Assembly: GCF_002906575.1 (NCBI RefSeq)
Contig: NZ_CP026309.1
Location: 434,001 to 498,000 of the forward strand
Source: Salinigranum rubrum
GTDB lineage: Archaea > Halobacteriota > Halobacteria > Halobacteriales > Haloferacaceae
Direction: 5' to 3'
Length of the DNA: 64,000 nt
Shown: positions 2,425 through 48,283 of the stretch, one piece after another
Numbering within the stretch: position 1 is the first letter of the stretch
How the letters are laid out: every line of letters starts with the position of its first letter
Notes under the pieces: generated by a model
Seen by the model: the letters and a program-made list of their open reading frames with translations, nothing else
Told to the model about the DNA's origin: nothing
The model's database searches: none
Made by a program: the position numbers and the translations under genes

Positions 2425-2664
2425 GGATGTCGGGGGGATGGGAAGAAGCTCTCACGAGATACTACAGTCGGATTCAGGGGCCAGCCATTTAACCCTTGTC
2501 AACCGGTGCGGGTAGCGCCGCTCACCGACCACGAGCGGGCTGGTACCTTTACACACGGAGACGTGAGATAAATGCCTTGCGGAGCGACCGACGATAGCGC
2601 CCCACACGGCGCGGTGAGATGAGAAGTCTTATTTACGAAACCCGGATACTGGAGAGTGCGCACT
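2425..2664. other. Intergenic region between divergent rpoH and tRNA-Asp
   Basis: No convincing protein gene in 240 bp. The right end holds a TATA-like CTTATTTA at about 2628-2635, roughly 30 nt before tRNA-Asp, the expected archaeal promoter distance. The left end must hold the rpoH promoter; no strong single candidate stands out. Confidence 0.5.
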
Positions 2665-2737
2665 GCCCGGATGGTGTAGTGGCCCATCATACGACCCTGT
2701 CACGGTCGTGACGCGGGTTCAAATCCCGCTCCGGGCG
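2665..2737 (+). tRNA. tRNA-Asp (GTC)
   Basis: Cloverleaf of 73 nt. Acceptor GCCCGGA (2665-2671) pairs with TCCGGGC (2730-2736), discriminator G. The anticodon GTC lies at 2699-2701 in loop CTGTCAC, and the T-loop is GGTTCAAATCC. CCA is not encoded. A short T run (2741-2744) follows and could stop transcription. A copy of its own 3' end lies about 145 nt downstream. Confidence 0.97.
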
Positions 2738-2758
2738 TCCTTTTGCGACGAACTACTC

Positions 2759-2886
2759 GGCGAGCACCGCGTAGCGTGTGCTCGCCACCTGTGAGTCGCA
2801 CAGACGCGATAACGGGAGTTGAACCAGAGCGTGGAGCGAACGAAGCGAGCGGAACGACCGTGGTTCACAATCCCGCTCCGGACAGT
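2759..2886 (+). repeat. tRNA-Asp tail element: hairpin, inverted T-arm and second copy of the tRNA-Asp 3' end
   Basis: Three parts are seen. (1) An 8-bp hairpin, GGCGAGCA 2759-2766 with TGCTCGCC 2779-2786. (2) GGGAGTTGAACCA at 2814-2826, close to the reverse complement of the T-arm, followed by the core GAGCGAACGAAGCGAGCG at 2834-2851. (3) TGGTTCACAATCCCGCTCCG at 2861-2880, a near copy of the tRNA-Asp T-arm and 3' acceptor strand with one inserted C; the 13 bases AATCCCGCTCCGG are identical to the tRNA. Parts 2 and 3 can pair into one long hairpin. The same layout follows tRNA-Phe, -Val and -Arg in this window. Function unknown. Confidence 0.75.
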
Positions 2887-40480: not shown

Positions 40481-40570
40481 ACCTCCCCTGCGTCCGTGTC
40501 TCACATAATCGTTCGTTTACAATAGGTGGTCGACGACGGTGGAGACGGGCTCACGAGTCGGGTGGTGTCG

Positions 40571-40703
40571 GTCGCCTCCCGGATTGTGAACTACGTCCGA
40601 GACCCTGCGCTCCGCGCAGAACCTCGGTCTAGTTCAAATCCGGTCGGGTCGCACTCACAGAACCCGCCGCGCTCGCTTCGCTCGGCGGTCGGGTTCAGAG
40701 AAG
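40571..40703 (-). repeat. tRNA-Phe tail element: long hairpin ending in a copy of the tRNA-Phe 3' end
   Basis: Read on the minus strand after tRNA-Phe: first a hairpin CCGCCG...CGGCGG with GAGCGAAGCGAGC inside (40664-40688). Next comes CCGGATTTGAACTA (40630-40643), an inverted T-arm. A central hairpin CTGCGC/GCGCAG follows, then GTAGTTCACAATCCGGGAGG (ending near 40571), a copy of the tRNA T-arm and 3' acceptor with one inserted base. The inverted and direct copies pair, so 40579-40643 can fold into one long hairpin. No gene lies in 40481-40703. Confidence 0.75.
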
Positions 40704-40777
40704 TGCCGCCTCCCGGATTTGAACCGGGGACAGCTCGATCTTCAGTCGAGTGCTCTCCCAGTCTGAGCTAAGGCGGC
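40704..40777 (-). tRNA. tRNA-Phe (GAA)
   Basis: 74 nt on the minus strand. Acceptor GCCGCCT pairs with AGGCGGC and discriminator A lies at 40704. Anticodon loop CTGAAGA gives GAA, and the T-arm is CCGGTTCAAATCCGG. No encoded CCA. A second copy of its 3' end lies about 130 nt downstream in the tail element. Confidence 0.97.
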
Positions 40778-41213: not shown

Positions 41214-41339
41214 GGGGCTCGGGCGGATTCGAACCTCGCCCAGACGTGCTCGCTCACTCCGTTCGCTGTGCGCGACTGGTCTGGTTCGAACCACCCTCTC
41301 GTCACGAATTCGTGCTCGCTATCGCTCGCACAGAATTAG
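41214..41339 (-). repeat. tRNA-Val tail element with a 21-bp exact copy of the tRNA 3' end
   Basis: Bases 41215-41235 are identical to 41341-41361, the 3' acceptor strand and T-arm of tRNA-Val, an exact 21-bp direct repeat 126 bp apart. Between them lie GGTTCGAACCACC (41283-41295), a T-arm copy that is itself palindromic, the core GCGAACGGAGTGAGCGAGC (minus strand, about 41250-41268), and a long hairpin GTGCTCGC/GCTCGCAC with outer arms AATTC/GAATT (41308-41337). Confidence 0.8.
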
Positions 41340-41413
41340 TGGGCTCGGGCGGATTCGAACCACCGATTTCGGCCTTGTAAAGGCCGCGTCATAACCAACT
41401 AGACCACGAGCCC
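41340..41413 (-). tRNA. tRNA-Val (TAC)
   Basis: 74 nt on the minus strand. Acceptor GGGCTCG pairs with CGAGCCC. Anticodon stem CGGCC/GGCCG encloses loop TTTACAA, giving anticodon TAC. T-arm GGTGGTTCGAATCCGCC, discriminator A. No encoded CCA. Confidence 0.96.
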
Positions 41414-48050: not shown

Positions 48051-48210
48051 CGTCCTGACGGAGCGTTGAACTCGCCGAGGCGGTCCTGCTCGCTCACTGC
48101 GTCCGCCGTGCGGGCTGCGACTCGTCTGCTCAACTCTCCGTGTTGCGTCAGCACCCTCGGCAGAGGCGAGTGACACGAATATCACTCGTCGTGTTGCCTC
48201 GGAAGAATGA
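48051..48210 (-). repeat. tRNA-Arg tail element with a copy of the tRNA 3' end
   Basis: 48051-48063 (CGTCCTGACGGAG) is identical to 48211-48223, the 3' end of tRNA-Arg, and the T-arm part continues with few changes (to about 48074). The repeat distance is 160 bp. 48128-48141 carries an inverted T-arm (GCTCAACTCTCCGT) that can pair with the copy. Between them, TGCTCGCTCACTGCGTCCGC (about 48088-48107) is homologous to TGCTCGCTCACTCCGTTCGC in the Val element. The neighbouring 47944-48050 holds no gene. Confidence 0.75.
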
Positions 48211-48283
48211 CGTCCTGACGGAGATTTGAACTCCGGTCCCTGGCTCCGCAAGCCAAGAGGATAGTCCACTACCCTACCAGGAC
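48211..48283 (-). tRNA. tRNA-Arg (GCG)
   Basis: 73 nt on the minus strand. Acceptor GTCCTGG pairs with TCAGGAC (one G-U), discriminator G at 48211. Anticodon stem TTGGC/GCCAG with loop TTGCGGA gives anticodon GCG, reading CGC and CGU. T-arm CGGAGTTCAAATCTCCG. Confidence 0.94.

Follow-up and report, generated by a model that had tools for sequence, protein, structure and literature searches.

Integron arrays are built of cassettes that lie beside an anchor site, carry imperfect attC hairpins, are added at the anchor end and undergo turnover. REP and BIME sequences are small hairpin repeats that occur in intergenic arrays in bacteria. Haloferax volcanii reportedly contains 'tRNA-like elements', which Hoelzle et al. 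are said to have found in 2012 by their tRNA-like fold. Elements that encode archaeal tyrosine integrases, the SNJ2 type among them, reside at tRNA 3′ ends between direct repeats (PMC8371274), and an SNJ2-type virus of Halovivax has a core of 13 bp (PMC8371274). Here we compare with such systems a repeat located behind tRNA-Val(TAC) of Salinigranum rubrum, in a stretch of 64,000 nucleotides referred to as the window. On balance we favor the view that the locus is a tRNA-anchored array of non-coding hairpin cassettes, which are exchanged and duplicated at two kinds of tRNA-derived arms, T+ and T-.

Results

The anchor of the array is tRNA-Val(TAC), located at 41339..41413 on the minus strand (ARAGORN; Rfam RF00005, 66.7 bits), and all parts described below for this locus lie on the same strand. 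A preliminary description had reported a 21-bp identity between 41215-41235 and 41341-41361, and the two segments do agree at 21/21 bases; we estimate the chance of a 21-bp match inside about 130 bp to be near 1e-10. Read on the minus strand, the copy comprises 22 nt (T+, 41214..41235, GGTTCGAATCCGCCCGAGCCCC) that correspond to tRNA-Val positions 52-73, with 21 exact bases and a difference at the last; it extends from the GG preceding the T-loop to the discriminator base. The tRNA's own T+ (positions 52-73) occupies 41340-41361. The hairpins and the palindromic T-arm piece said to lie between the copies were also found. An S hairpin (41296..41339, CTAATTCTGTGCGAGCGATAGCGAGCACGAATTCGTGACGAGAG), which overlaps the ARAGORN tRNA end by one base, is followed by T-, an inverted and slightly imperfect copy of the tRNA-Val T-arm (41283..41295, GGTGGTTCGAACC), and by a C hairpin of family B (41236..41282). 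The S hairpin family of this locus is present in Haloferax and in Salinigranum salinum as well. Neither Rfam nor ARAGORN detected a second tRNA at the T+ copy; positions 52-73 alone are copied, and across six array loci only the tRNA scored above the Rfam gathering score. A tRNA pseudogene or tandem tRNA was ruled out, the copy having no tRNA body or fold.

Four such loci were claimed for the window, and the count holds: the S, T-, C, T+ arrangement seen at tRNA-Val recurs behind tRNA-Asp, tRNA-Phe and tRNA-Arg. At tRNA-Asp (2664-2740, plus strand) T- lies at 2813..2825 (CGGGAGTTGAACC) and the T+ copy of the tRNA 3′ end at 2862..2884 (GGTTCACAATCCCGCTCCGGACA). The minus-strand array of tRNA-Phe (40703-40777) has its T- at 40630..40643 (CCGGATTTGAACTA) and its T+ at 40570..40592 (AGTTCACAATCCGGGAGGCGACC), and that of tRNA-Arg(GCG) (48211-48283), also on the minus strand, has T- at 48130..48140 (CGGAGAGTTGA) and T+ at 48051..48072 (AGTTCAACGCTCCGTCAGGACG). 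The tRNA-Phe and tRNA-Asp copies carry the same 1-nt insertion in the T-loop (TTCACAATCC), which also occurs at four other loci (L071, L075, L104 and L108).

Each unit consists, in order, of an S hairpin, T- (the inverted T-arm), a C hairpin and T+ (tRNA positions 52-73), and measures about 100-150 bp. Counting from the T+ inside the tRNA, an array runs T+, S, T-, C, T+ and onward, the units being single or in tandem. S and C are frequently capped GA-GC-NNN-GC-GA, and a longer stem, with T- and T+ as its base, encloses C; this stem is often imperfect because many units have a small defect in T- or T+. The units are non-coding, and their length leaves no space for genes. Nextera adapter sequence together with N was found inside the first hairpin unit of Halorubrum saccharovorum and Halorubrum distributum (L127, L164), an assembly artefact, and these units were left out of boundary calls because of it.

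Cognate copies were sought within 450 nt downstream by local alignment of the final 22 nt of the tRNA, with a minimum score of 26; they accompany 22/46 tRNA genes of the source genome. None was found upstream, and the non-cognate background was 4.4%. With a stricter score, copies were detected at 20/43 tRNAs of the source genome, 14/30 of Salinigranum salinum and 11/28 of another haloarchaeal genome (G016). The array plan was not found at 28 control tRNA loci from three genomes elsewhere in the phylum, where two cognate copies were detected, one of them a whole tRNA-Gly in tandem and the other a repeat of the tRNA-Ala 3′ half. In one non-haloarchaeal genome of the phylum (L261), a second copy of the tRNA-Ala(CGC) 3′ half, trailer included, lies about 120 bp downstream of the first, and the T-/C plan is absent. 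A survey of tRNA-Val(TAC) in other haloarchaea covered 80 loci among the matches listed, two of which were too short to judge; 58 of the remaining 78 had one to three copies downstream, none had a copy upstream, and the first copy stood at a median of 97 nt from the tRNA.

The commonest module, a 71-bp type B sequence, was present in 93 of the 103 sampled genomes of the haloarchaeal order and in 0 of the 288 others of the phylum, both totals being our own count from the search listing. Within the sampled phylum this module is restricted to the haloarchaeal order. Within its own genome, matches of the unit fall either beside tRNAs or in an array that an insertion moved away from tRNA-Ala. Two plasmid matches were obtained, one adjoining a tRNA-Glu-like gene and the other a hairpin without arms. 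On the Natrinema thermotolerans megaplasmid (CP031304.1, about 235,200-235,460) a tRNA-Glu-like gene that ARAGORN left uncalled is followed by one array unit. A search of viral contigs and phage records for the array module found none, and a viral origin was set aside.

The arms of each unit vary with the tRNA beside it. In its acceptor part, T+ fitted the local tRNA strictly best in 132/141 units, with a mean of 0.60 mismatches over 11 positions against the unit's own tRNA versus 6.05 against other tRNAs. For T-, agreement with the local tRNA was seen at T-loop position 57 in 99, at 59 in 99 and at 60 in 96 of 104 readable units; the corresponding means after shuffling were 60, 84.5 and 53.6, and 0/2000 shuffles reached the observed values, in a test that ignores relatedness and leaves shared ancestry in its counts. 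C hairpins are shared between tRNA genes. The largest cluster at 80% identity, which is somewhat heterogeneous as a result of single linkage, comprises 58 units; these come from 16 tRNAs and represent 27 genus-level groups. In one genome (G018) about ten different tRNAs have a C hairpin of type B. The tRNA-Val C hairpin of the window matches that at tRNA-Pro of Salinigranum salinum at 46/47 bases, and each of the two loci has the arms of its own tRNA.

Comparisons of species-level genomes revealed how the arrays differ between relatives. At tRNA-Val, Natronococcus sp. A-GB1 and N. amylolyticus differ by a single gap of 106 bp that falls exactly at the tRNA 3′ end and represents a gain or a loss, and outside the gap 398/427 positions are identical. 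The extra unit is not a local duplicate, because its S and C are unlike those of its neighbor. Between Haloferax massiliensis and H. sulfurifontis, S is nearly unchanged and the distal flanks are 94% identical, with C replaced. Four Salinigranum species have four different arrays at the tRNA-Val locus, and many pairs of species with flanks 85-95% identical have neither S nor C in common. The arrays change faster than their surroundings. They are also polar: in tandem arrays the tRNA-proximal copy was less diverged than the last copy in 23 cases, more diverged in 2 and equally diverged in 17 (sign test, p=2e-5), a pattern consistent with copies being added or corrected at the end next to the tRNA. 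Mobility had been regarded as unlikely should one sequence occupy this site in all relatives, with ordinary drift and no empty sites; instead, some relatives lack the copy and others have one to three units.

Outside the window, the source genome has a type B unit 17.4 kb downstream of tRNA-Ala(CGC) (G000:C1:397977-415507; L044). In front of this unit stand the final 13 bases of that tRNA (CCCGGCGAGTCCA), and an integrase-family gene (a 370-aa frame with a weak PF00589 match below the curated cut-off) adjoins it; all PF00589 matches of the source genome lie outside the window. The ends of this element have no S, T- or C. The simplest reading is that the element integrated through a 13-bp core and pushed an existing array away intact. 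At tRNA-Val of Natrialba chahannaoensis (L119), about 4.8 kb with transposase-like and integrase N-terminal-like frames separate the tRNA from a T- C T+ unit.

Discussion

These data require that whole units be gained or lost at T+ borders, that C be exchanged between T- and T+, and that the arms stay cognate. We infer that T+ and T- are recombination sites. As sites or short homology arms, they would allow whole units to be inserted, deleted and duplicated, and C cassettes to pass from one species, or one tRNA gene, to another. T+ copies may be refreshed from the tRNA or added beside it, a proposal under which the nearest copy would match best, and either hairpin (quasi-palindrome) correction or selection acting on the folded strand could keep T- complementary to T+. 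Candidate agents are homologous recombination, template switching or a dedicated recombinase. Inter-species recombination at orthologous arrays would explain unit gain and loss and part of the C exchange. The arrival of C at a new tRNA with that tRNA's own arms suggests exchange via the short conserved T-arm core, which might proceed by template switching, short-homology repair or a recombinase. Counted against the array reading, neither a recombinase linked to the arrays nor a circular intermediate was seen in species-level genomes. Also counted against it, inter-species homologous recombination, which is frequent in haloarchaea, could explain the exchanges at orthologous tRNAs with no special system. 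A bolder version, which we consider doubtful, holds that these are undescribed, order-wide mobile non-coding elements that home to tRNA genes, rewrite their arms to match the local tRNA and add units next to it, and that the substrate of a dedicated recombinase is folded single-stranded DNA or a transcript.

The preliminary description took the tRNA-Val repeat for the mark of a small integrated element or its footprint, and units would then be attL/attR scars of integrase-mediated elements. Its mobility reading was right in spirit: what lies between the copies of the tRNA 3′ end is an insertable and deletable unit, as seen in relatives with none or one to three units and in the 106-bp difference. 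The footprint part is too narrow for a fixed T+ S T- C T+ plan that is non-coding, recurs at about half of the tRNAs and draws on shared hairpin families, so that the claim as a whole is partly supported. T+ inside the tRNA and the T+ copies do form direct repeats of a tRNA 3′ end, the classic signature of attL and attR, and integrated elements do occur, at tRNA-Ala of the source genome and at tRNA-Val of Natrialba chahannaoensis. Against scars stand the lack of integrase or element genes inside the units, the one plan repeated at about 20 tRNAs, and the failure to find the module in viral or phage collections. The tRNA-Ala element is the one examined in detail: it repeats 13 bp of the acceptor end (CCCGGCGAGTCCA), the array copies being 22 nt from position 52, its ends are free of S, T- and C, and it left the array intact. 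On this evidence we rejected the integrase footprint as the main reading, and regard scars as a very improbable origin of the units.

The hairpins might instead belong to a functional trailer RNA, transcribed behind the tRNA as terminators, 3′-processing signals or a bistable switch; in the switch version T- would pair either with the T-arm of the tRNA itself or with the T+ copy, and selection would keep both cognate. Under RNA parameters, 123/141 S and 117/141 T- C T+ units have their better fold on the tRNA-sense strand, a bias that drops to 89 and 92, respectively, under DNA parameters. G-A mismatches in S number 50 on the sense strand versus 11, and compensatory changes on both sides affect 9/11 S pairs among 13 hand-picked Val loci, a count that is illustrative given that we chose the sequences. 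In Haloferax volcanii hairpins can terminate transcription, and two RNA 3′ ends lie behind tRNA-Pro (PMC7237163). A transcript role is possible, and an RNA role may maintain the hairpins since the sense strand folds better with RNA parameters. RNA wobble, however, would predict an excess of G-T over A-C mismatches in S, where we counted 16 versus 20; Rfam matches the tRNA alone, and the T+ copy has no tRNA-like fold, because it starts at position 52 without the rest of the 5′ T-stem strand. The arrays are also patchy, present at about half of tRNAs and absent from 20 of the 78 Val loci among the matches listed, and close species differ in unit number and cassettes. We find it unlikely that a trailer RNA is the main explanation. 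Quite unlikely, in our judgment, is an origin through ordinary repeat dynamics, in which old trailer hairpins beside tRNAs are duplicated by slippage or unequal crossing-over, made uniform by gene conversion and reshuffled by recombination, with no special system. Identical tandem units, such as the three at tRNA-Val(CAC) of G018, are what this would produce, and haloarchaea are described as highly recombinogenic in the portions of PMC3988388 and PMC4500145 considered here, and as polyploid with gene conversion in that of PMC4056108. Such processes do not easily explain the move of C to a different tRNA whose own T+ and T- are kept, the extra Natronococcus unit whose S and C differ from its neighbor's, or the finding of the type B module in 0/288 genomes outside the order and of the architecture at none of the 28 control tRNA loci.

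About half of the tRNA genes in the three surveyed haloarchaeal genomes have arrays, yet we found no description of them in the open-access papers searched, among which most subscription papers are missing, and priority is not certain. If the arms are recombination sites, the ends of these repeats would be supplied by their target, in a system for which haloarchaea are a tractable model; were the arrays transcribed, tRNA trailers would constitute a class of fast-evolving structured RNA. Either way, the arrays are a hazard for assembly, tRNA annotation and att-site calls in haloarchaeal genomes.

Comparison with known systems

Like the tRNA-like elements of Haloferax volcanii, the array copies are haloarchaeal tRNA-like sequence outside tRNA genes; unlike them, as reportedly defined by Hoelzle et al., they do not have most of the T-stem or a tRNA fold, and some overlap is possible. 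REP and BIME sequences are not known to be tied to tRNA genes or to have target-derived arms. The resemblance to integrons lies in the anchor, the imperfect hairpins with a GTT/AAC base, the apparent addition or refreshment at the anchor end and the turnover. The array cassettes are gene-free, however, and their arms copy the neighboring tRNA, whereas integrons use a fixed attC; the attC R′ core GTTRRRY is absent from the arrays, in which T+ reads GTTCRAA. Tyrosine-integrase elements carry genes, including an integrase, and have a short core, unlike the non-coding arrays with their inverted T-arm at about half of tRNAs.

The transposase-free PATEs, SMRs and MITEs (PMC3119063) resemble the arrays in being short, non-coding, palindromic and haloarchaeal, and according to the part of PMC3119063 used here they are strain-specific insertions with fixed ends that target other mobile elements or IS605-type sites. 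That part of PMC3119063 describes neither tRNA anchoring nor target-dependent ends for them, and a relation to PATEs or SMRs was set aside on the lack of a described tRNA link. MITEs, SMRs and PATEs are defined by fixed ends that do not depend on the site and by copies at many unrelated places; in the arrays, T+ and T- follow the local tRNA, and own-genome matches lie at tRNAs or at the displaced array. We file the arrays as a variant of small palindromic repeat arrays, one whose arms are those of the tRNA beside it.
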